Virus record (IMG/VR): IMGVR_UViG_3300035670_000771
Span: 1-34,239 of that record
DNA: 34,239 bases
Strand: one strand, 5' to 3'
Source of the DNA: a virus
Of the stretch, positions 1 through 34,239 are shown in pieces (within the stretch, counting starts at the first letter, position 1; each line of letters starts with the position of its first letter). Made by a program: the position numbers and the translations under genes. The notes under the pieces were generated by a model, which searched no databases, had not been told where the DNA came from, and saw only the letters and a list, made by a program, of their open reading frames with translations.

Positions 1-173
1 GTCGATCGTCACATGGCCGGCAGGGTCACCAGGCGCATAGATGTTGTTGTAGAAGTTGCGCACCTTGTGCTGCTGGCCGAGCATGACGCTGATGTTCTCG
101 AGCGTTGGGTTGTCCAAGATTGAGATCGCTTTGCCGATCTCGTTCAGCGAGCCCCAGCCGGTCTTGTACGCCG
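1..173. repeat. Left copy of near-identical contig-end repeat
   Basis: This 173-base segment matches 34067-34239 in the same orientation with seven mismatches, at left positions 19, 28, 147, 148, 151, 171 and 172. The interior 118 bases (29-146) are identical. Both copies encode the same part of one protein, and every difference up to position 151 is synonymous. I infer a circular genome of about 34,066 bases whose contig ends derive from slightly different variants. A true paralogous duplication is the less likely alternative. Confidence 0.9.
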
Positions 174-1551
174 CGCCAGACTGCGTCTTGCGCACGCCCA
201 TGAAATCACCCTCCGGCGACACGATCTGGTGCTCACGCGGGTTGAATGCCTGGTCGAATGTACGCAACCACAGCGCCCGCTCACCTGGGGTCTTGAGCTC
301 TGCATAGCTTTTGCCGCGCACCAGGTTGATCACCGGCTGGTACTTCGGGTCAGCCCAGATGACTGATGCGGTGTTTTCCATCGCATCATCCCAGCGTCGG
401 CCTGCTTGGTTGCGTGCGATGTCGATCACGCGCTGGCCAAGCGAGACATTCATAAACCAATCTTTTTGCGGCGACAGCACGGCAAGCACACCGGACACAG
501 CTTGATCAGGCACACCGTATTCATTGCCAAAGCGGTCGGTGATGTTGCGTGCGCCGTCGTACCACAGGCGCGATCGAGTGCGCGTTCCCTCTGGCACCTG
601 GTCGTACAGGTAGAGCAGGTTGTCCTTCACATGGCTGATGAAGTCCTCGGCCTGCTTCTCTGGCGTGCGAGCCTTTGAAACAAAATTCGGGTACTGCTTG
701 ATCAGACCCATGTTGTGAGCAAATGCGTCTGGGTCTGCCTTCGCTGAGTTGTAGTCAATGATCAGCTTGTTCTGGATCGGATCTTCGGTTGCCTTCTTTG
801 CTGTCGGCAGGCGAGTGCTGACCACGTTCGGCCCAGGCGGTGCCACGTCCATGAGCCCACCCGTCTTGCGCAGGTAGCCCTCAACCATCTCGCCAGCAGC
901 TGGTGCCAGTGCTTCACCTACTTTCTTCGCACCCTTTGCGGCAAGCGCAACACCAGGTACGGCATCCAAACTTTGAAGCACCCCGGTTCCATACTGCAGC
1001 GCGGCCTGACCATATTTGCCAGCCTCTGCCGATTCCATTGCCTCACCAGCAGAAATGCCTGCCTCCTGCCCGGCAAGCGGGATGACAAACGGCGTGACAT
1101 CAATAAGGCCGATGCCAAGCGGTGCGCCAGAACTGTCGCCACCAAACACCGTTTCAGATAGTCGGCGGGCGCGGTAGTTGTCCATGCCGAGCTGCGCCTT
1201 CAACAGCTCCTGAAAACCGCTCGACAGTTTTTGCCGCAGCGTCGGGTCTTGCGGAATGACCTGACCGCTCACGCCACGTTTCTGGTCTTCAGCAATGCGG
1301 CTCAAGATCGCCTGCGATTGAGTTTCCAATGGCATAGACCGGATCATCTGCAGCACCTCGTCCTGCGTCGGCTGCTTGCGTTTTGGCAGGCCGACACCAG
1401 CAGGCGCATCGGTGCGCGTGGCACTCGGGCCGGCTGCCAGCTGCACGCCATCCAGCGACGGCTCTTCAACCATCGGCTCGTCCACAGCCTCGGGAAACGC
1501 GGCCATCGCCAGCGTGTCCAGATACTTCTGCTCGATCGGGCTGTAGGCCAT
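1..1551 (-). CDS. Ejection/virion-associated protein, N-terminal 517 codons (gene cut by left edge)
   Basis: The reading frame is open from an ATG at 1551 to the window edge. A GGGAGAG ribosome site precedes the start, which lies 2 bases after the stop of the previous gene. The N-terminus is acidic and disordered-looking. Residues about 95-160 are hydrophobic and Gly/Ala-rich, which would suit membrane association. A compact domain follows, with segments such as FGNEYGVPDQAVSGVLAVLSP and KVRNFYNNI, and ends at HVTID on the window edge. The other window end continues the frame as THAVAAGLL, giving a 701-aa protein. VTIDTHAVA resembles the VDTH segment holding the catalytic Asp of endonuclease III/MutY-type DNA glycosylases. 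That link is inference from a short motif only. Its place after two internal-virion-like genes suggests an ejected protein. Confidence 0.85.
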   Translation of the reverse strand, partial: MAYSPIEQKYLDTLAMAAFPEAVDEPMVEEPSLDGVQLAAGPSATRTDAPAGVGLPKRKQPTQDEVLQMIRSMPLETQSQAILSRIAEDQKRGVSGQVIPQDPTLRQKLSSGFQELLKAQLGMDNYRARRLSETVFGGDSSGAPLGIGLIDVTPFVIPLAGQEAGISAGEAMESAEAGKYGQAALQYGTGVLQSLDAVPGVALAAKGAKKVGEALAPAAGEMVEGYLRKTGGLMDVAPPGPNVVSTRLPTAKKATEDPIQNKLIIDYNSAKADPDAFAHNMGLIKQYPNFVSKARTPEKQAEDFISHVKDNLLYLYDQVPEGTRTRSRLWYDGARNITDRFGNEYGVPDQAVSGVLAVLSPQKDWFMNVSLGQRVIDIARNQAGRRWDDAMENTASVIWADPKYQPVINLVRGKSYAELKTPGERALWLRTFDQAFNPREHQIVSPEGDFMGVRKTQSGAAYKTGWGSLNEIGKAISILDNPTLENISVMLGQQHKVRNFYNNIYAPGDPAGHVTID

Positions 1552-1553
1552 CG

Positions 1554-3320
1554 TTACTCTCCCGCCTGGTTCAGCAGCTGCTCAATGCGGGTCACCTCGC
1601 GCTGCTTGTTGATGTCATTGCCAGCCTTCTGTTTCAACGCAGGCAGGTTCTGCCGGGTGATCGTGCCGTTGATCCAAGGCTTCTTTGAATACACGTCGTC
1701 CAGCTGCTTGCGGGCAGCCTTCGCTCCCTCGCTGTTGCGCTGCTTGGCGATGCCCTCGTCGATCTTTTCCAAAATCATCCGCGGCGTTGGCACCTTGCCT
1801 TCGCGAATCATCTGCGCCTCGATGTCCTTGGACTGCGCCAGCAGCTCCTGGCGGCGCTTGAACTCGGCACCCTTGGGGTCGATGACGGTCACGCTGCCAG
1901 GCACCACGGGGATACCGGCACGCTTGGAGATGCCGTTGTCGAGCTCGTTCTGATCCTGCTTGTCTTCGCGGTTCAGCAGCTTCAGCGCAGCCACAGCTTG
2001 CTTGGTGCTCAAGCCCTGGCGAGTCATCGACCAGATCTGATCAGGGCTGGTGATGCGACCCTCGTAGATGCCGCGCAACAGGTTGAACTCGGCTGCCGAA
2101 TTGCCTTCACCCTTCGGCGGGTCGCGCAGGTCTTTCAGCACGCCGAGCGGCACCACGTCAGGGTTGCGCATGGCGATCGCCGCGATCTGGTTGGTCAGGT
2201 TCTTACGCTGCGCACTACCTTCCGGTGCCTGTAGCGCCTGGTCGTACAGCGGCAGAAACTGCTTGAGATCTGCCGCTTTGTTGTCAGCCTTCTGCTGCTT
2301 CTCAAGCGCCTCGCGGTTGTTGACCGCGACCATGAAGTTGGCAGTCACCTTGGCCACAGAGTCGAAGTCGGTGGCGATCATCTGCTGCAGCACCGGGCTC
2401 ATCTTGCCCACATCGCCTGCGCGGATCTTCGCCAACGTCTTCATCGGGTCGGCCAGGTAGGCGTCACCAGTGATTTCCCTGGTCACCGCGTTGATCTTCG
2501 CAGTGCGCAGCGCAGTCTCAAACTTGGTCGAGTATTCTTTCTGTAGACCAGCATCGCCCAGCAACATCGACTGCGTGTTGATGTTCTTGCGGAATACGTC
2601 AGCGAGCTCGTCGATCGAATACGCCTGACCGGTGCGAGGGTCGGTGTAGCTGCCTTGTTGCACGGTCGCCTCGAGCAGCCGCACGCTGTTGTCGAAGTCG
2701 AGATCAAACTTGGCGATGCGCTCGTTCTTTGCGCGGGTGAGCTCAGTCTGTCGCGCCTTATCAAGCACGGTCGCGCCGTGCATCTTCATGGTCGCAGTGA
2801 ACTTGAGCGCAGCTTCTGGGTCGACACTGGCCAGCGACTTCGCCAGACCATTGGTCATGGTCGAGATCTTGGTCTCCACCTGCTGCGAGTTTGCGTTGCC
2901 TGTCTCAATGTCGACCAACAGCTTGGAGAGCTCGTTGCGACCCTCGATCTCAAAATGCGATGAGAGCTCAAGGCTGCGAGCCTTGCGCACAGCGGCATTG
3001 AAAAAGCTCGGCAGGTCGCCAGAGTTCTTGCCGATGCCGCCACCCAGGCCAACAGTGACACCCTCTTTGGCGAGCTGGATGTCTTCCGGCGTCAGCGGGT
3101 TGTTGGCCACATACTCGAGGCCTTCTTTGGTGCGCAGGGTTGCGGAATAGTTGTTGATGGTCGAAGCCATCCGGTCGAGGATCTGCGCATACACGTTGCT
3201 GACATTGGCATCAGCGCGGGCAGCAGTCATGTAATCGACCTCGGTCGGCACGACCTGCTGCATCGGCACACCGCCGGCACCGCGCAGCTGTACTTGTCCT
3301 TCTGTCAGTCGCGTCGCCAT
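1554..3320 (-). CDS. Internal virion (ejection) protein, gp15-like
   Basis: This 588-aa protein is hydrophilic and mostly alpha-helical, with no signal peptide or membrane segment. AGAGGAC precedes the ATG. Stretches rich in Lys, Glu and Gln with periodic Leu/Ile (about residues 180-360 and 480-588) look like long helices. Its position directly after a 200-aa small internal-virion-like gene and before a large virion protein is that of T7 gp15-type core proteins, which leave the capsid with the DNA and help form the conduit across the cell envelope. The assignment rests on gene order, size and composition; I see no catalytic motif. Another structural role cannot be excluded. Confidence 0.7.
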   Translation of the reverse strand: MATRLTEGQVQLRGAGGVPMQQVVPTEVDYMTAARADANVSNVYAQILDRMASTINNYSATLRTKEGLEYVANNPLTPEDIQLAKEGVTVGLGGGIGKNSGDLPSFFNAAVRKARSLELSSHFEIEGRNELSKLLVDIETGNANSQQVETKISTMTNGLAKSLASVDPEAALKFTATMKMHGATVLDKARQTELTRAKNERIAKFDLDFDNSVRLLEATVQQGSYTDPRTGQAYSIDELADVFRKNINTQSMLLGDAGLQKEYSTKFETALRTAKINAVTREITGDAYLADPMKTLAKIRAGDVGKMSPVLQQMIATDFDSVAKVTANFMVAVNNREALEKQQKADNKAADLKQFLPLYDQALQAPEGSAQRKNLTNQIAAIAMRNPDVVPLGVLKDLRDPPKGEGNSAAEFNLLRGIYEGRITSPDQIWSMTRQGLSTKQAVAALKLLNREDKQDQNELDNGISKRAGIPVVPGSVTVIDPKGAEFKRRQELLAQSKDIEAQMIREGKVPTPRMILEKIDEGIAKQRNSEGAKAARKQLDDVYSKKPWINGTITRQNLPALKQKAGNDINKQREVTRIEQLLNQAGE

Positions 3321-3936: not shown

Positions 3937-5922
3937 TCAGGTTCCCGAATAAACAGCGACTCGGTAATCAAGGCCGAGCAGATTCATCTTCAGCGGCAGA
4001 CTCTGCGTCACTTCGATCGCCTGCTCGCGGCTGTAGCCGAGGATGCCGTTGACGCGCTTGATGCCGGTGAACGTCGGCACCGGGTCATCCAGCAGCGGGT
4101 TGTCCATCAGCCGGAAAGCCACTTCCTGCGCGTTGAGCAGGCAGTGCTGCGTGTCGTCCAGCACCGCGCTGATCTCGACGATGCGCTTCTTGAACGACAC
4201 ACGGCTGCCGGTCTGCAGCTTGATCTCCACCGGCATCGTCTTGGCGTACACCGTCATGGGCAGGCCGACTTCGTAGCTGGTGGTCGATGCGCGGTCAAAT
4301 GTCACCGAGCCGCCGGCGCTCACAGTCTCGTTACTCTGCGGCACGCCATCGGTGATGACGTTCAGCGCTTTGCCCACATGCGGCAGGCTGCTTGCGCTTG
4401 CTGCAGCACCGCCCGTAAATGCGCAGTCGGTATAGAGATCGTCCTTGAACTGCTCAATAAAGTACCTTGTCGTGCCATCGAACACGCGCTTGGTCACGAC
4501 ATAGATCTGCGTCACGTCGACACCGACATCGATGAAGTCACCAGCGGTGATGTACTCGCTGGGTGAGGTGATCTGCTGGCTACGCATGATCGAAAACACC
4601 GCCATCGATCCGTCGCTAGTGTTGGTCATCATCAGCAAGTCGGCTTCTTCGGTGCTCGCACCACGACGCAATGCGATGCGCTGCGGGCCTTTCAACAGAT
4701 GGCCAGACAGCAGCGAGATGCGCTGCGTGATGTAGGTCAGCTGCGTGTCGCTAAACACAAACTCGTTCAACGACTTGCCCTGACGCTGGATGTAGATGCT
4801 GCCGGATTCGACCGACTGCACTCGCGTGCCAGGCTTGATGCCGTTGCGGCTGACCTGCTTGAATGTGAACGTCAGCGGCGTGATCGGGTCGGTGCCTTGC
4901 TGCGGCACATAGAACTCACCACCGGTCGTGAACACTTGGAAGTCACGCGAGCTCACGATGTCGGTGATGACGTTCAGGTCATTGGTGTCGAGGGTCGCCT
5001 CGACTGCGTCATCGTCCAGCGATTCGCTTGGCACGAAATCGAAGAACAGATTGATCTTTGAGCCCCAGATGGTCGACGGGCGAGACTTGCTGCCGCCAAA
5101 GTACAGACGACCCTCATGGAACGTCACCGACCGCGGCCAGCCCTTGCCCGAGCTCCACACATCCTCGTAGCCAGTCTCGAGCTCCCAGCTGCCATTGGCA
5201 ACCGCTGCGGTGTTGAAAAACGGGTATTCAGTGATGGCATCGACCGAGGTCGCCGAGGTGTACCGCACGATCTTTGCTCGGCCCTGCGGGCTGGCGTTGA
5301 TGTACTGGTTGACATGGCCGCTGTTGAACACCGAGGCCGATGCGGTAATCGTGATGTTGCCGGCCACCGCAGACGGCGTGATCGTGCCGGAAGGGTTGCT
5401 TGCCGCCAGCGTGAAAGCGTACTTCGGGATGCTGTCAAACGTAATCGTGCTTGCAGTCCAGCTGGCATCGTTTGCGCCGCGCACAATCTTGACCGGCTGC
5501 AGATCTGGGTGAACGATGATCAGTGTGTCAGCAGACTGCGTCCAGCACATGTCGTCGACGATGCTGCTGCCGATCGACGTGGCCAGATAGTCGTTGCCAG
5601 ACGCATTGATGTTGGCAATGCGAGCGCCATTCTTGATGACGTGCATTCTGTTGTGCGTGAAGCACAGCATGTAAGAGTCATCGACCGAGAACTGGAACGG
5701 CACCAGGCGCACGCCGTTGCCTGCAGACTCGGTGCCGGTATGCGGCAGCTGGTGGATATGCTTCAAGCCTGGCCGGCGGCGTAGTCCACCTTGCGGCTGG
5801 ATCAGCACGTTGGTCGCCTTGGCCAGCGCGTTCGGGTAGGACTGCAGGTCAACCCGCGCACGCAGCAGCGGGTCGAGCTCCCCCGTCGAGAAGTTGGTGG
5901 CGAAGTCGACGAAGCGCGGCAT
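3937..5922 (-). CDS. Tail tubular protein B-like (tail nozzle)
   Basis: The 661-aa product starts at the ATG at 5922, which overlaps the upstream stop as TGATG. A longer frame upstream merely shadows the preceding gene. The N-terminus has the pattern typical of podovirus tail nozzle proteins: FSTGELDPLLRARVDL, then a run of small residues, then NVLIQPQGGLRRRPGL. The rest is rich in beta-strand sequence with many Thr, Ser and Gly residues. T7 gp12-type nozzles form the distal tail tube through which DNA passes. Length is somewhat below T7 gp12 (794 aa). Immediate neighbours, the adaptor upstream and a gp14-like gene downstream, agree with this call. Confidence 0.9.
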   Translation of the reverse strand: MPRFVDFATNFSTGELDPLLRARVDLQSYPNALAKATNVLIQPQGGLRRRPGLKHIHQLPHTGTESAGNGVRLVPFQFSVDDSYMLCFTHNRMHVIKNGARIANINASGNDYLATSIGSSIVDDMCWTQSADTLIIVHPDLQPVKIVRGANDASWTASTITFDSIPKYAFTLAASNPSGTITPSAVAGNITITASASVFNSGHVNQYINASPQGRAKIVRYTSATSVDAITEYPFFNTAAVANGSWELETGYEDVWSSGKGWPRSVTFHEGRLYFGGSKSRPSTIWGSKINLFFDFVPSESLDDDAVEATLDTNDLNVITDIVSSRDFQVFTTGGEFYVPQQGTDPITPLTFTFKQVSRNGIKPGTRVQSVESGSIYIQRQGKSLNEFVFSDTQLTYITQRISLLSGHLLKGPQRIALRRGASTEEADLLMMTNTSDGSMAVFSIMRSQQITSPSEYITAGDFIDVGVDVTQIYVVTKRVFDGTTRYFIEQFKDDLYTDCAFTGGAAASASSLPHVGKALNVITDGVPQSNETVSAGGSVTFDRASTTSYEVGLPMTVYAKTMPVEIKLQTGSRVSFKKRIVEISAVLDDTQHCLLNAQEVAFRLMDNPLLDDPVPTFTGIKRVNGILGYSREQAIEVTQSLPLKMNLLGLDYRVAVYSGT

Positions 5923-6536
5923 CAGTTTCTCACCGCGATCAGGGTGTAATCTTCCATCGCACGGGTCGGCTGACCCTGCGCATCGATGTTCATGGCCGTG
6001 CGGAAGTAACCACCGCGGCCATTCTCGGACGGGTCGCCAACAGCCTTGCGCTCCCAGCGCAGCGACTTGTCCTGCTGTTCGGTGATCGGCTCGGCGATGT
6101 GCCAGGCGACCATGTACTTCATCAGTTGGGTGAAATACTGCGGCCAAGCGAACTCACCAACGCTGTACTGGTAGTCGATGAAGACGGCCTCGAGATTGGT
6201 CAGCAGCTGGTCGCCTTGGATCTCCCAGTCTTTCTGCACCGCAGCGCCTGGGCTGGCGGTGTCGTACACAGCACGCGGGCCGGCCAAGCGATCACCCGGC
6301 AGCTGATAGGCGTATTTCCAGACCGATGTCGGAGCCGTCAGCAGGCGAGCGAGCTGCACCTTCTTTGTGTTGAAGCTCCACGGGTACATCACCAGCGTGG
6401 AGTCACGGATGTCTGGGTACAGACGGTCACACACCGAGCTCTCGTCGGTGCCATCGTTGAACGACGTGATGGCCTTTGCGCCGATCAGGAGCAAAGCGTC
6501 AGAGCAGATTGTGATACCGGTATCCCCAGCTGCCAT
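5922..6536 (-). CDS. Tail tubular protein A-like adaptor
   Basis: This 204-aa protein begins MAAGDTGITICSDALLLIGA, then ITSFNDGTDESSVCDRLYPD and STLVMYPWSF. That is the usual opening of head-to-tail adaptor (gp11/tail tubular A) proteins: an N-terminal helix with a small gap motif followed by a YP-x-RD-x-L segment. Such adaptors form a dodecameric ring between portal and nozzle. An AGAGG site 5 bases before the ATG supports the start. The stop overlaps the nozzle start by one base (TGATG), so the two tail-tube genes are translationally coupled. Confidence 0.88.
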   Translation of the reverse strand: MAAGDTGITICSDALLLIGAKAITSFNDGTDESSVCDRLYPDIRDSTLVMYPWSFNTKKVQLARLLTAPTSVWKYAYQLPGDRLAGPRAVYDTASPGAAVQKDWEIQGDQLLTNLEAVFIDYQYSVGEFAWPQYFTQLMKYMVAWHIAEPITEQQDKSLRWERKAVGDPSENGRGGYFRTAMNIDAQGQPTRAMEDYTLIAVRN

Positions 6537-18187: not shown

Positions 18188-18868
18188 ATGGCACCGCATC
18201 AAGGCAAGTTCGTCGCGTACTACCGCGTATCGACCGACCGTCAAGGTCAATCAGGCCTTGGCATCGAAGCACAGCAGGAAGCAGTGCGTACATTTCTCAA
18301 TGGTGGCCGCTGGTCAGTGATCGGCGAGTTCATTGAGATCGAATCCGGTACCCGTAAGCGCTTAAAAGACCGCCCTATGTTGAAGGCAGCACTCGAGCTC
18401 GCCCGCAAGCAGAAGGCCACGCTGGTGGTCGCCAAGCTCGACCGCCTGGCACGCGACGTTCAGTTCATCTCGACCCTGCTGAACGGCAAGGTGCAGTTTG
18501 TCTGCGCCGACATGCCGCAGGCCGACCGCGTTTTCCTGCAGATGGTCAGCGTGTTTGCTGAGTACGAAGCAAAGCGGATCTCTGAGCGCACCAAGGACGC
18601 GCTGGGCGCGTTGAAACGCCAGGGCAAGAAGCTCGGCAGCCCGACGCCTGAGATCGGCAGCGCCGAGGGCGTCAAGGTCATCCAGGCAAAGGCCGACGCC
18701 TACGCAGACAAGGTCGGGCCGATCGTGCGCGACATCATCAGGAAGTCCGGCGCTGAGACCCTGCGCGACATCGCTGCAGCGCTTTCAGCTCGCGGCATCG
18801 AGACACCCCGCGGCAACAATGACTGGCACCCCAGCCAGGTCAGCAACTTGCTGAAAAGGATCAAGTGA
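18188..18868 (+). CDS. Serine recombinase (resolvase/invertase family)
   Basis: This 226-aa enzyme carries the resolvase catalytic domain. The nucleophile is S15 in AYYRVSTDRQG, and the arginines are R86 and R89 in AKLDRLARD. A central region (QMVSVFAEYEAKRISERTKD) forms the long dimerisation helix. The C-terminal 50 residues (TLRDIAAALSARGIETPRGN then WHPSQVSNLLKRI) are a helix-turn-helix DNA-binding domain. Length fits small resolvases rather than large serine integrases. It could integrate the phage or resolve genome multimers; no att or res site can be confirmed. AGGAGG precedes the ATG, and the gene follows a strong promoter and faces the ribbon-helix-helix gene. Confidence 0.92.
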   Translation: MAPHQGKFVAYYRVSTDRQGQSGLGIEAQQEAVRTFLNGGRWSVIGEFIEIESGTRKRLKDRPMLKAALELARKQKATLVVAKLDRLARDVQFISTLLNGKVQFVCADMPQADRVFLQMVSVFAEYEAKRISERTKDALGALKRQGKKLGSPTPEIGSAEGVKVIQAKADAYADKVGPIVRDIIRKSGAETLRDIAAALSARGIETPRGNNDWHPSQVSNLLKRIK

Positions 18869-30659: not shown

Positions 30660-33512
30660 TCAATCGGGTTTGTAATACAGTCCGTTTGCTTTGCGCAGCT
30701 CCTCGAGCTCATCGATCTTGATCTGCAGCGTCGGGTCTTCCTGCAATAGTTGTTTCTTGGCCATGTCCATGAACTGCGAGTGGACGCGCTGAATGGTCTT
30801 CTGCTGGTCATCCAGCGTCATCAGGTCAAAGCCTGGCGTCAGGATGGTCTGCAGGATGGCGTCCTTGGCCGGCATCTCTTTGCCGTAGATGGTCAGCAGC
30901 CGGTTGTACTGCACCGCATCCATCTCCACGCCCTGCAGCTTGCGCTCCGGCATACCGACCGGCGAGCCCAGGCGCACCAGGGCATCGTCCACCTCGCTGA
31001 ACTGAGCAGGGCTGACCTTGGTCGGCAGCACGATCTCGAGCGGGTTGCCGCGTGACTGCAGCACCGGGTCACCCCACAGGTTGAGCTGCTCGGGCAGTGC
31101 CTCGCTGAAGTAGGGCAGGCGGCTGCGGTACTTGTTGAAAGCCTCGGCAAAGCCACGCACGCCCATCGGGAGCTCGGGGCTGGCACGCGGGTCACGCGCT
31201 GCCGGGTCGTACAGGCGCTCAATGCCGGCCACGATCGAGCTCGTTCCAGGCATGGGCGAGCCGCCGATCGCAAACGCGCCGAACTGCTTGGCCAGACCGT
31301 CGACGATCTTCTTGCCGTCCACCTGGCCCTGCTGGTTGGTGCCGATCAGCTTGGCTACATCGGCCACGCCCTGCAGATACGGCTGCTCCTTCAGGTACTC
31401 GTACAGGCCATACGTTCCACCAAGGAAAACCTCCTCGACCTTGCTTGCGTCCGGCTCATGCTTGGCGTACTCGGCATAGTCGGCAGCGATTGCCATCAGC
31501 GCCGAGACCGGCTCCATGCCGCTGTAGCTGTACCAAGTGTCGCCGACCTTCATGCTGTACGGCTGCCAGCCGTCGCGCATCGCAGCCTCGCGGTCTGCCT
31601 TGCGCTCTGGGCCGCGCCCGGTCAGATGACCCTCGGATGCAAGCATGGCAAAGACTGTCAACATGCTTGAGCCCAGCGTCACCTTGGCCAGCGCCATGTC
31701 GCGCTGGATGCCGCCGGCTGCGATCTCGTCGCGGAAGCGGGAGGAGAGCGGGGCGAACGGCGTGCGCTCGACTACGTTGAGCCCGATGTTGGCCGGCGTC
31801 TTGAAGAATGGCACCACGACCTTGAGCGCCGGGTGGTTGAAGACATTCTGCAGCTTGGCTAGGGCAGGGGGCAGGTCGGCAGTGAACGTGCCGCGCTTGG
31901 CAAACTCCAGCGCTGCTTCGTCCAGATCCCGCGGCGGGTTGGCCAGCAGGCTGGCAGCTTCCACCTCGGCCTTGGCGATCGCCTCGGCCTCAGTCAGGCC
32001 GGCGTCCAACGCATCCCGGTAAGTCGACTTGGCACGGCGGGTCACCTGGGCGTTGATCTCCATGCGGTACATCACGCCTTTGAAAAACTCATCCTCGGAC
32101 ATGAGCGCACGGCCAGGCAGGGTGACAGCGGTGCCGTAGTAGTCCAGCCCCTTGCCAAACCATGAGCTCTGGTCTGCACCGGTCATGCGCTGCAGGGTCT
32201 CGCCCAGGCCTTCGGTCGGCGCACGATCCAGCTCAACCTTGCTGGCCAGATCCATCTGCGGCTGGTTCTTGCGGAAGGCAGTCGACGCCAGGTCGAAGCC
32301 TTCGATCAGACCGTTGCGCAGCGACTGCACCATCGTCAGCGCCTCGTCCATCGCCAGCTTCTCATCAGCTGCACCAGGCACCAGCGACTTCCAGCTGCGC
32401 ACGCCAGCCGGCAGGGTGTTGGAATAGATCGATGCGATCAGCCGCTCGGGGATTTGGTACGCACCGAACATGGCATTCGAGACAATGTTCTTGGCGTGCG
32501 AGACCGGCGAGGAGAGCAGGCCGTTGATGTAGGTGGTGAACCAGACATCCTTGACGCCGGACATCATCGAAGCCTCGACCAGCTTGTTCTTGCCGGCACG
32601 GGTCTCGATCGACAGGTACGAACGCGCCAGGTCGGTCAGCGACTGGTCGCCACCGTACTCATCCAGCGTCTTGCGGATGATGTCGGCATTGCCCTCACGC
32701 GGGATGCGGAACACAGCCAGAGCTCGAGCAGTCTCGGTCTGGATACCCTTGACGCCTTTCTGAATCAGCCCGTGCAGGGCGATCTGCTGCCGCAGCTTCA
32801 GCTTGTCGATGTCGGTGGCAGCGCCCGAGTCGACCAGCTTGAACAGCTTGTCGAGCTCGTTGGCCGACGACTCCAGCACCTCGAGCGCCTTGTAGGTCTC
32901 GACAGCGTTGGCCATCATCTTGCCGTCGGTGCCGATCAGCCGGTTTAGAAATACTTCATCGATGCCAGAGTCGGCAGCCTTGGCCTTGATCTCGTCGAAC
33001 GTGACCGCCTTGGTCTTGATCTTCAGCGCATCAGCCACACCACCGATGACAGCAGCTGCGTCGTCGGTCTGGTAGCGGGCAAGGTTGAATGCTTCCTCCG
33101 GCACGCCAGCGGCTCTCTCAGCTGCGTTGGGGCTCGGCTTGCCGATGGTATTGCCCGTCGCCTTGCGGGCTGCTGTGGCCTGTTTAACGGCGTCTGTGAG
33201 GGTCTGGCTGGCCTCGGGGATCAGGGTATTGCTTCCGACCTTGCCGGTCGGCGGCAGGGCATCGTCAGCAGCGCGTGCTGCCTCCGGCACCAGGTTGCGC
33301 GTGGCCTTCGGGCTTGCTTCGCGCAGGGTCTTGCGGATGACGGAAGCCAAGCCGGCAACCTGCATCCCGTCCATCGACGGCGTGCCAGGCTCTACTGCAG
33401 TCTGAAGATCTGGGGTTGCCATGCCCTCGGCGGGCATCGGCTCAAGCGGTAGCTGTCCAGTCGGAGCTGGTGGGATCAGCTGGTCAAGGCGCTGGTCTAG
33501 GTTGTCGGCCAT
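30660..33512 (-). CDS. Large virion protein (ejection/LPD-type, 950 aa)
   Basis: The ATG at 33512 overlaps the preceding stop as TGATG, with AGGAGC upstream. The N-terminal 120 residues are Pro/Ala-rich. The central part contains WFTTYINGLLSSPVSHAKNI then VSNAMFGAYQIPERLIA, a frequent segment in large phage virion proteins. The C-terminal part has VVPFFKTPANIGLNVVERTP and DGWQPYSMKVGDTWYSYSGM followed by EPVSALMAIAADY, with hydrophobic stretches suited to membrane contact. It probably enters the host envelope with the DNA. No lytic transglycosylase motif was seen. The LPD family name is inference. Confidence 0.8.
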   Translation of the reverse strand: MADNLDQRLDQLIPPAPTGQLPLEPMPAEGMATPDLQTAVEPGTPSMDGMQVAGLASVIRKTLREASPKATRNLVPEAARAADDALPPTGKVGSNTLIPEASQTLTDAVKQATAARKATGNTIGKPSPNAAERAAGVPEEAFNLARYQTDDAAAVIGGVADALKIKTKAVTFDEIKAKAADSGIDEVFLNRLIGTDGKMMANAVETYKALEVLESSANELDKLFKLVDSGAATDIDKLKLRQQIALHGLIQKGVKGIQTETARALAVFRIPREGNADIIRKTLDEYGGDQSLTDLARSYLSIETRAGKNKLVEASMMSGVKDVWFTTYINGLLSSPVSHAKNIVSNAMFGAYQIPERLIASIYSNTLPAGVRSWKSLVPGAADEKLAMDEALTMVQSLRNGLIEGFDLASTAFRKNQPQMDLASKVELDRAPTEGLGETLQRMTGADQSSWFGKGLDYYGTAVTLPGRALMSEDEFFKGVMYRMEINAQVTRRAKSTYRDALDAGLTEAEAIAKAEVEAASLLANPPRDLDEAALEFAKRGTFTADLPPALAKLQNVFNHPALKVVVPFFKTPANIGLNVVERTPFAPLSSRFRDEIAAGGIQRDMALAKVTLGSSMLTVFAMLASEGHLTGRGPERKADREAAMRDGWQPYSMKVGDTWYSYSGMEPVSALMAIAADYAEYAKHEPDASKVEEVFLGGTYGLYEYLKEQPYLQGVADVAKLIGTNQQGQVDGKKIVDGLAKQFGAFAIGGSPMPGTSSIVAGIERLYDPAARDPRASPELPMGVRGFAEAFNKYRSRLPYFSEALPEQLNLWGDPVLQSRGNPLEIVLPTKVSPAQFSEVDDALVRLGSPVGMPERKLQGVEMDAVQYNRLLTIYGKEMPAKDAILQTILTPGFDLMTLDDQQKTIQRVHSQFMDMAKKQLLQEDPTLQIKIDELEELRKANGLYYKPD

Positions 33513-34239
33513 CACTTAGCTCCTGAAGCAGGAGCGCGACGGCCCCGCGTTACGCTTGTCTGATTTGCTCCGGCAGGCTGGACTCGTCCAGATCCTCCGG
33601 CACCCCCTCCGGGTACGCCAGCCCCAGGTAGTTCTCCCGCGTTAGCGGCAGGCCCGCCTGCTTCAGCAGATCCAGAACGTAGTCCGGCTCGCTCCCACTC
33701 GGGGGGCTGGATTCCACCTGCTGTTCGGATGACTTCATTGCGTGCCTCTTCAAGGGAGAGTTTGCCCTTCCTATATTTTACCCAAATGTCGTCAATGACT
33801 TGCACATTTTTTGCTGTCTTGAAAGTATCTGGGAACAGGCCGCGGACAGCCTCCCAGGTGATTGACTGCATCTCACGCGGCAGCACGCCGCGCTCTGCGG
33901 CTGCACGCCGGTAGGCCTCGGCAAACAGGCCATAGGTTCCCTGCACGCCGCTGATTGAACTGTTCTTCGGGCCGACTTCGCCGGCCACATTCGATCCGAA
34001 GTTATGCAGCACCTCGCGGCTGTTGCCAGACAGCGGGCGCAGCAGGCCTGCAGCGACTGCGTGCGTGTCGATCGTCACATGGCCCGCAGGGTCGCCAGGC
34101 GCATAGATGTTGTTGTAGAAGTTGCGCACCTTGTGCTGCTGGCCGAGCATGACGCTGATGTTCTCGAGCGTTGGGTTGTCCAAGATTGAGATCGCTTTGC
34201 CGATCTCGTTCAAAGATCCCCAGCCGGTCTTGTACGGTG
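33512..34239 (-). CDS. Ejection/virion-associated protein, C-terminal part (gene cut by right edge)
   Basis: The frame is open at the right edge and encodes 241 residues ending at 33512. Its first part repeats residues also encoded at 1-173. Beyond position 34066 it adds THAVAAGLLRPLSGNSREVL, then SGVQGTYGLFAEAYRRAAAE and LPREMQSITWEAVRGLFPDT. Joined to the left part it completes a 701-aa protein. The core ends around IQPPEWERAG. The last 60 residues are Gly/Ala/Pro-rich and low-complexity, and they coincide with the out-of-frame 62-aa gene at 33550-33738. The apparent start at 34213 is an internal TTG, not a true start. Confidence 0.85.
   Translation of the reverse strand, partial: PYKTGWGSLNEIGKAISILDNPTLENISVMLGQQHKVRNFYNNIYAPGDPAGHVTIDTHAVAAGLLRPLSGNSREVLHNFGSNVAGEVGPKNSSISGVQGTYGLFAEAYRRAAAERGVLPREMQSITWEAVRGLFPDTFKTAKNVQVIDDIWVKYRKGKLSLEEARNEVIRTAGGIQPPEWERAGLRSGSAEAGGPAANAGELPGAGVPGGGAGGSGRVQPAGANQTSVTRGRRAPASGAK
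33550..33738 (-). CDS. 62-aa protein encoded out of frame within the virion gene
   Basis: An ATG at 33738 with GAGG seven bases upstream opens a frame fully inside the 3' end of the larger gene. The product has a natural composition: an acidic, Ser/Pro-rich start (SSEQQVESSPPSGSEPDY) and then LLKQAGLPLTRENYLGLAYP with EGVPEDLDESSLPEQI. The GLPLTRENYL-x-LAYP-EG-P pattern recurs in small phage proteins I know from other genomes. In contrast, the main frame is low-complexity here, so the small frame is probably the constrained one. Function is unknown. Confidence 0.72.
   Translation of the reverse strand: MKSSEQQVESSPPSGSEPDYVLDLLKQAGLPLTRENYLGLAYPEGVPEDLDESSLPEQIRQA
34067..34239. repeat. Right copy of near-identical contig-end repeat
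   Basis: This is the partner of 1-173, same orientation, seven mismatches in 173 bases. Identical sequence runs from 34095 to 34212, and mismatches lie at both flanks. Differences near 34213-34217 change GGC-TCG-CTG into GGA-TCT-TTG on the coding strand without changing Gly-Ser-Leu. Confidence 0.9.

Follow-up and report, generated by a model that had tools for sequence, protein, structure and literature searches.

What would a protein resembling a DNA-base-excising enzyme be doing among the ejection proteins of a podovirus? The question is raised by a single virus record, IMG/VR IMGVR_UViG_3300035670_000771, whose full length of 34,239 bases we analyzed (hereafter the window), and by a 701-amino acid (aa) protein encoded across its ends. 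A preliminary description of this DNA had proposed that the protein is split by the window ends, that it carries the peptide KVRNFYNNI followed by a segment containing VTIDTH, and that this segment resembles the VDTH segment with the catalytic aspartate of helix-hairpin-helix (HhH)-GPD DNA glycosylases. We find that the protein bears a DUF7178 domain with an invariant lysine and aspartate, which very probably adopts an HhH-GPD-type fold according to structure prediction, and that it is encoded at a conserved position between internal virion protein genes where relatives carry other C-terminal domains.

The window is a permuted or terminally redundant contig. Its two ends share a 170-nt overlap whose five nucleotide mismatches leave the shared peptide unaffected (Table 1), and because the contig ends overlap in this way, the 701-aa gene is cut by them. 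The right-end minus-strand frame encodes 241 aa and contains both KVRNFYNNI (34106-34132) and HVTIDTHAVAAGLL (34040-34081), and the left-end frame encodes 517 aa. In the joined 701-aa product, the lysine is residue 496 and the aspartate residue 517. Two related loci, L003 and L004, are 98% and 97% identical to the window protein over its C-terminal part and each contain one uninterrupted 700-aa open reading frame (ORF) across the junction, supporting the join. Both the split gene and the two peptides were thus as first described.

Domain family, conserved residues and predicted fold

Both halves of the gene match Pfam family PF23802 (DUF7178; 54.7 and 53.6 bits, against a curated cut-off of 27 bits), as well as phrog_3842, a family of unknown function. 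The DUF7178 domain spans about residues 241-648. The bare pattern G-x(0,3)-K...[VIL]D[TGVR][HNW] occurs twice in the six frames of the window, where shuffles lead one to expect 0.52 occurrences; given this chance count, we rejected the motif as evidence by itself, and our case rests on conservation, fold, and profile similarity.

We compared the lysine and aspartate across several sets of homologs. A viral scan identified 447 relatives, and the K...DxH pattern is present in all of the best 80, which were kept; the script sought this pattern, and some scan patterns contain the lysine. A genome scan using patterns without Lys496 or Asp517 found 11 loci, and both residues are kept in all ten that contain the region, the eleventh (L093) being cut before it. 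In a hand-picked 18-sequence alignment with identities down to 23% (A2; truncated L091 and L093 excluded), the lysine, the aspartate, and the following histidine are all invariant. Another alignment (A1) comprised 41 of the 43 cluster representatives (L021 and L044 excluded, L082 trimmed to its domain). A profile alignment, which includes loci found by patterns containing the lysine, has both residues in 178 of 180 segments, with the other two falling short of those columns. Finally, stand-alone phage DUF7178 proteins keep the lysine and aspartate in ten of ten sequences and the histidine in nine (tryptophan in ResDef gp85). The aspartate is therefore kept, together with the invariant lysine, in every homolog long enough to judge. 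The untrimmed L082 protein (L082:1488-2798; 867 aa) has an extra N-terminal region with the sequence HHELTHGIQG, which by eye resembles a zinc-metallopeptidase motif.

This conservation bears on whether the domain is active. HhH folds bind DNA, and a catalytically dead domain could serve the ejected core by binding DNA or as a structural element. We consider this very improbable: a domain without catalysis would hardly have kept the lysine and aspartate unchanged in sequences that diverge so strongly, the stand-alone proteins among them.

We used AlphaFold to predict the structure of the L004 protein. The full-length model is poor overall, with a predicted local distance difference test (pLDDT) score of 64.5, but good in the domain region. 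Comparison with VIA-align, which re-ranks Foldseek's list only, places DNA glycosylases at ranks 1-20 (EndoIII-3 at Z 6.3, then OGG1 and Clostridium Ogg), with the next row at Z 3.8. A domain-only model (residues 241-648; 50-sequence alignment A3) reaches a pLDDT of 93.2 and a predicted template modeling (pTM) score of 0.91, and all 24 VIA-align rows at Z ≥ 4.9 are Qng1/DUF2419 (four) or HhH-GPD entries (20). Qng1 aligns best (Z 8.6; 219 residues at 4.4 Å), and the HhH-GPD enzymes include AGOG (Z 7.8), EndoIII-3 (7.6), OGG1 (7.0), Clostridium Ogg (6.3), and MutY (5.1). One of the twenty HhH-GPD rows, 1xg7, is titled “conserved hypothetical” and is presumably an AGOG. Below the glycosylases lie PaMx11 gp46, a DNA-base-modifying transferase (Z 3.8), and unrelated entries at Z 2.8 or less.

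In the domain model, helices 243-250 and 254-264 form a helix-hairpin-helix, with Lys255 at the start of the second helix and Asp276 immediately preceding helix 277-284. In the HhH-GPD superfamily, the catalytic lysine of bifunctional members is located at the start of the second HhH helix, and the aspartate just before the next helix. The suspected likeness to the VDTH segment and its catalytic aspartate is upheld at the level of fold, since the predicted structure aligns best with Qng1, AGOG, EndoIII, and OGG1. Neither outcome that the preliminary description named as refuting, a fold unrelated to HhH-GPD or homologs without the aspartate and any helix-hairpin-helix, was encountered.

Profile comparisons with hhalign point in the same direction for the stand-alone proteins. 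Ten stand-alone DUF7178 sequences align with six bacterial Ogg-HhH sequences (85.7%, score 45.4; shuffle maximum 23.4) and with 39 HhH-GPD sequences (82.3%, score 42.6; shuffle maximum 34.0), compared to a score of 54.8 for MutY/Nth versus Ogg as a positive control. The DUF7178/Ogg alignment pairs GQK with GPK, IDGH with LDRH, and ITW with AIW, placing lysine on lysine and aspartate on aspartate. Polyvalent-type DUF7178 sequences, the type aligned in A3, are tied to HhH-GPD via the stand-alone set (99.8% between the two). A mixed DUF7178 profile gave 12.6% and 27.5% against HhH-GPD in -M first mode and none in -M 50, and the first small EndoIII and MutY profiles gave about 3% or less.

Several results weigh against assigning the domain to the DNA glycosylases. 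No HhH-GPD family appears among Pfam matches at E ≤ 1, so the domain is not filed in PF00730, and sequence searches of the PDB gave no match to the protein. The A3 alignment alone does not match HhH-GPD profiles significantly (0.5% and 0.4%). Neither model has a significant Foldseek match in the PDB, the best for the domain being AGOG 1xqp (E 0.31, probability 0.57). No Z exceeds 8.6, a level at which the tool warns of a common helical arrangement, and values of 7-8 are modest for helical proteins. Lastly, the best structural match, Qng1, acts on a nucleotide rather than on DNA. An NCBIfam search found no useful family, and stand-alone DUF7178 sequences had one match among PDB sequences, at chance level (E 1.3).

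The Qng1 match raises the alternative that the HhH-GPD-type fold performs other chemistry, either as a Qng1-like nucleotide N-glycosylase or in DNA-base modification like that of phage amino acid:DNA transferases. Besides the leading position of Qng1 and the presence of PaMx11 gp46 (a 5-PmdU glycinyltransferase) in the structural comparison, this is consistent with the location of the stand-alone gene near thymidylate synthase in SIO1 and P12053L. However, the lysine and aspartate register with the catalytic pair of DNA glycosylases, PaMx11 gp46 scores far below the glycosylases, and a scan of a subset of the window's proteins revealed no thymidine-hypermodification genes. We consider this alternative unlikely. 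Whether the modeled domain would act on the N-glycosidic bond in DNA itself is, in our judgment, evenly poised.

An ejection-gene position with exchangeable C-terminal domains

We next turn to the setting of the gene. A gp15-like gene lies upstream of the domain gene in 65 of the 72 viral loci that extend far enough, and a gp16-like gene directly adjoins it downstream in 58 of 67. In the window, the gp16-like neighbor matches a family of internal virion proteins (Table 1). A place between gp14/15-like and gp16-like genes is the ejection-protein position of podoviruses, and the window gene occupies it; the earlier placement among ejection proteins is borne out by this gene order and by the match of the next gene. 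Together with the polyvalent fusions of the domain described below, this setting makes delivery of the protein from the virion probable.

Judged by its terminase, the window phage has Methylophilales phage MEP301 as its nearest named relative (74.8%). MEP301 likewise heads the records matching the tail tube protein (58.9%), where pelagiphages follow it. MEP301 lacks DUF7178, and a 161-aa gene occupies the slot between its gp15- and gp16-like genes. We rejected MEP301 gp25 as a carrier alone, since its homology is not significant, and used only its position. MEP301 gp23 and gp24 (L234:14031-17130) look like pieces of one gp16-like protein, which is a single 1031-aa ORF in L236, L237, and L239.

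Using an internal virion protein of MEP301 as the query, we found 11 loci. In L242, L243, and L245, DUF7178 is absent from the slot protein, whose window-type N-terminal region (blastp E 1e-21) is instead accompanied by an ADP-ribosyltransferase domain (ART-PolyVal; E 4e-20 in L242, the one tested). A payload-blind scan with the N-terminal 238 aa of the window protein found eight loci: three with DUF7178, two each with further families that we designate B and C, and one other (L250). A fourth payload kind, D, is found in L259 and L260 on an L242-type carrier. C-terminal domains are thus exchanged on a common N-terminus of about 240 aa. The L250 protein (L250:5001-6179; 393 aa) has the window-type carrier and an unrecognized C-terminal domain of about 150 aa that looks ADP-ribosyltransferase-like by eye and has no match in the PDB. 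A 1049-aa slot protein beside a gp16-like gene (L244:2538-5684) has no Pfam match and an unknown payload.

Our census of this slot covers 209 loci and 140 distinct proteins: DUF7178 63, B 37, C 27, D 6, ART 1, and unrecognized 6, proportions that are biased because most loci were fetched by payload queries, with only the MEP301-protein and N-terminal 238-aa scans being payload-independent. At E ≤ 1e-5, we could recognize the carrier in 49, 33, 23, 2, 1, and 2 of these, respectively. No slot protein in the census matches both DUF7178 and B, C, or D profiles at E ≤ 1e-5. All four families have in common the signature K-x3-F, D-x-[HW], Q-x3-W. After dropping identical or short rows (leaving 60 of 80 loci for B, 29 of 36 for C, and seven of nine for D), the lysine and aspartate are present in 60/60 B sequences and 7/7 D sequences, the latter with a canonical GVG[APQ]K hairpin; family C has the lysine in 29/29 and the aspartate in 28/29, with one row gapped at this position.

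By hhalign, stand-alone DUF7178 matches B (94%, score 56.8; shuffle maximum 39.0) and C (59%, score 38.9; shuffle maximum 24.5), and B matches C (89%, score 52.6; shuffle maximum 33.1). Comparisons of family D with the other profiles are not significant. We infer that B and C are divergent members of the HhH-GPD superfamily, and D is a likely member based on its motif. A C-like sequence is also found within a 3,126-aa protein of Limnohabitans phage DC33 (L397, PQ492659.1); this 39-kb record is filed under Inoviridae despite encoding so large a protein, and its taxonomy looks mistaken.

Fusions, stand-alone homologs and the proposed role

Polyvalent proteins have been described as conflict proteins with multiple domains, encoded by phages and conjugative elements (Iyer et al, 2017; PMC5512222). 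DUF7178 is found in several such proteins. A 2872-aa protein of a Pseudofulvimonas contig (L084:1194-9809) combines it with RadC, GGDEF, and a virion-RNA-polymerase-like region. Other fusions contain ART-PolyVal and LPD22 (2684 and 1405 aa), LPD38 and ART-PolyVal (3839 aa), or a methyltransferase (3103 aa). Several effector domains occur in one polypeptide in L084, L086, L092, L095, L096, and L097, and the window protein has one recognized domain plus the carrier. Virus Rctr197k (L097:1744-7899) encodes apparently two DUF7178 copies (about 1122-1314 and 1400-1628) together with InPase and 2',5' RNA ligase-like domains. DUF7178-like matches were found in two of 72,556 plasmid records, both partial.

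DUF7178 also exists as a stand-alone gene, for which we fetched 11 of 99 matched phage records and excluded one with a split gene, cyanophage NATL2A-133, from the alignment. In this phage (L223:2968-3590), the gene is annotated as two coding sequences with the Asp segment in neither, reflecting either a broken gene or a sequencing error. Stand-alone genes are among the first genes in the records of Lentibacter phage ICBM2, Celeribacter phage P12053L, Anabaena phage A-4L, and Synechococcus phage S-CBP2, a position that suggests early action. Depositors labeled S-CRES3 gp63 “N-glycosylase/DNA lyase” and Cece gp22, ResDef gp85, and Popcicle 87 “glycosylase”, so our reading of the fold is not wholly new.

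In several phages these stand-alone homologs are encoded by small genes of their own, at a distance from those annotated as structural, consistent with a product that is not packaged, but belongs to a late-operon gene acting, or building virions, in the producing cell. For the window gene this is improbable: the position between internal virion protein genes is conserved, and in relatives the domain sits within large polyvalent proteins.

We propose that the window protein is an ejected cargo comprising an N-terminal carrier of about 240 aa, a domain of the HhH-GPD superfamily (about 241-648), and a disordered tail. It would be packed alongside the gp14/15/16-like internal proteins and enter the host with the genome. 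Inside the host, the domain would bind DNA and flip out a base; given the fold and the invariant residues, Asp517 may cut the N-glycosidic bond and Lys496 may act as the Schiff-base nucleophile of a glycosylase/apurinic-apyrimidinic (AP) lyase. The target would most likely be host DNA, or a base important in host defense, resulting in early takeover or counter-defense; this is the weakest step of the proposal, and we give it somewhat less than even odds against repair of the phage's own genome. The slot itself would be modular: in relatives, the carrier bears an ADP-ribosyltransferase or a different family with the K...D...W signature. Taken as a whole, this explanation has in our view about as much chance of being right as wrong.

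The enzyme could instead be an injected repair enzyme that clears oxidized or otherwise damaged bases from the incoming phage genome before replication. Among folds that act on DNA, 8-oxoguanine glycosylases (AGOG and OGG1) and EndoIII come closest, and the best profile match is Ogg-HhH; moreover, DNA is damaged in light-exposed waters. On the other hand, relatives carry an ADP-ribosyltransferase in the same slot, the co-domains of DUF7178 are conflict-type modules, and the turnover of very divergent families in one slot appears more like an arms race than housekeeping. We regard repair of the phage's own genome as a lesser possibility worth keeping in view. The wording “DNA-repair-like” in the preliminary description fits the fold, but the setting points rather to a host-directed effector, the reading that we tentatively favor because the alternative slot cargo and fusion partners are conflict-type enzymes.

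In our preferred reading, the locus is a slot for exchangeable effectors, probably ejected, in which HhH-GPD-type enzymes predominate in our payload-biased sample. We offer as a conjecture that small podoviruses related to MEP301, and more distantly the pelagiphages, possess an exchangeable capsid payload slot in which a common carrier delivers at genome entry either one of several base-excising enzymes of HhH-GPD fold that differ greatly from one another (DUF7178 and families B, C, and D) or an ADP-ribosyltransferase, with the payload traded among relatives as arms-race weapons or counter-defenses. If the enzymes act in this way, phages would bring DNA-base chemistry in with the genome. For DUF7178, a Pfam family whose function is unknown and whose members occur in podoviruses, cyanophages, actinophages, and giant polyvalent proteins, our findings offer an identity that can be tested. 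They also point to an aquatic phage group with a modular payload slot. Since payload and carrier are separable, the purpose of each payload can be addressed by comparing closely related phages.

Window features and known systems

The window phage is a T7-like podovirus encoding a terminase, a connector, T7-type scaffold and capsid proteins, tail tubular proteins, internal proteins, and a fiber, along with a YqaJ-type nuclease and a RecT-family protein. Among the genes near the split gene (Table 1), the gp14-like protein is weakly similar to MEP301 gp27, which itself matches phrog_418, internal virion protein. A serine recombinase (18188-18868; Resolvase, E 1.9e-27) is also encoded in this T7-like podovirus, which is therefore possibly temperate. 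The window's terminase is 40.6% identical to that of Dunaliella viridis virus SI2 (HQ332136.1), a record with an algal host by name that looks like a bacteriophage.

Table 1. Positions in the window of the split gene, its parts, and neighboring genes.
Feature	Position	Strand	Remarks
N-terminal 517 aa of 701-aa protein	1..1551	-	Start codon 1549-1551; runs off window at base 1; intact in L003/L004
C-terminal 241 aa (residues 461-701) of 701-aa protein	33512..34237	-	Stop codon 33512-33514
“Carrier” region, residues 1-240	832..1551	-	Common to relatives bearing other C-terminal domains
Predicted HhH-GPD-type domain (DUF7178), first part, residues 241-517	1..831	-	Pfam PF23802, E 1.6e-14; model
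Predicted HhH-GPD-type domain, second part, residues 461-649	33671..34237	-	PF23802, E 3.4e-14; residues 461-517 duplicated at left end
Lys496 codon (KVRNFYNNI)	34130..34132	-	Invariant; left-end copy 64-66
Asp517 codon (VTIDTH)	34067..34069	-	Invariant; left-end copy 1-3
C-terminal tail, low complexity	33512..33670	-	Low pLDDT in L004 model
Terminal overlap with window 1-170	34067..34236	.	165/170 identical
gp16-like internal virion protein, 951 aa, next gene	30660..33515	-	phrog_6651 “internal virion protein”, E 1.2e-32
gp15-like protein, 588 aa, previous gene	1554..3320	-	Named by gene position and weak similarity to MEP301 gp26
gp14-like protein, 200 aa	3332..3934	-	Named by gene position and weak similarity to MEP301 gp27
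Tail tubular protein B-like	3937..5991	-	phrog_376, E 4.4e-118; MEP301 gp28, 58.9%

We compared the window protein with known systems. Like AGOG, OGG1/Ogg, EndoIII, and MutY, its domain has the predicted fold, the helix-hairpin-helix, and a catalytic-type lysine and aspartate; it differs from them in its identity of about 10% in structural alignments, its lack of a PF00730 match at E ≤ 1, and its phage ejection context. The ejection proteins of T7 are encoded in the order gp14-gp15-gp16, and this gene order and the gp16-like neighbor are alike in the window; to our knowledge, T7 has no extra payload gene between gp15 and gp16. The stand-alone DUF7178 proteins (SIO1 gp9, S-CRES3 gp63, Cece gp22, and ResDef gp85) have in common with the window protein the domain recognized by the hidden Markov model (HMM) and the lysine and aspartate, but are encoded by genes of about 190-230 aa, whereas in the window the domain contains an insertion and shares one protein with a carrier, encoded in the ejection gene block.

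Qng1, the DUF2419 queuosine-5'-monophosphate glycosylase, is the nearest structure to the window domain but has a nucleotide substrate; DUF2419 is noted as similar to 8-oxoguanine DNA glycosylases in the part of PMC11592518 available to us. We sought the Qng1 family PF10343 in 398 genomes and found no match, but none in the controls either, making this search uninformative. Brig1 and Brig3, as far as the available parts of PMC11078745 and PMC13160076 describe them, are bacterial anti-phage DNA glycosylases of the uracil-DNA-glycosylase superfamily directed at phage DNA. They resemble our proposal as DNA glycosylases in phage-host conflict, but differ in superfamily, bacterial origin, and target.

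A search of the literature, with most subscription papers outside its reach, found nothing on DUF7178 or on a DNA glycosylase with ejection or internal virion proteins. Searching for polyvalent proteins together with DNA glycosylases gave, in the portions available, only review passages on T4 endonuclease V and other polyvalent domains, and the accessible part of the polyvalent-protein account (PMC5512222) names no DNA glycosylase domain. In our data, relatives of the window domain are fused in polyvalent fashion with ART-PolyVal, LPD22, LPD38, RadC, and methyltransferase domains, and the window version is a split-off carrier with one payload.

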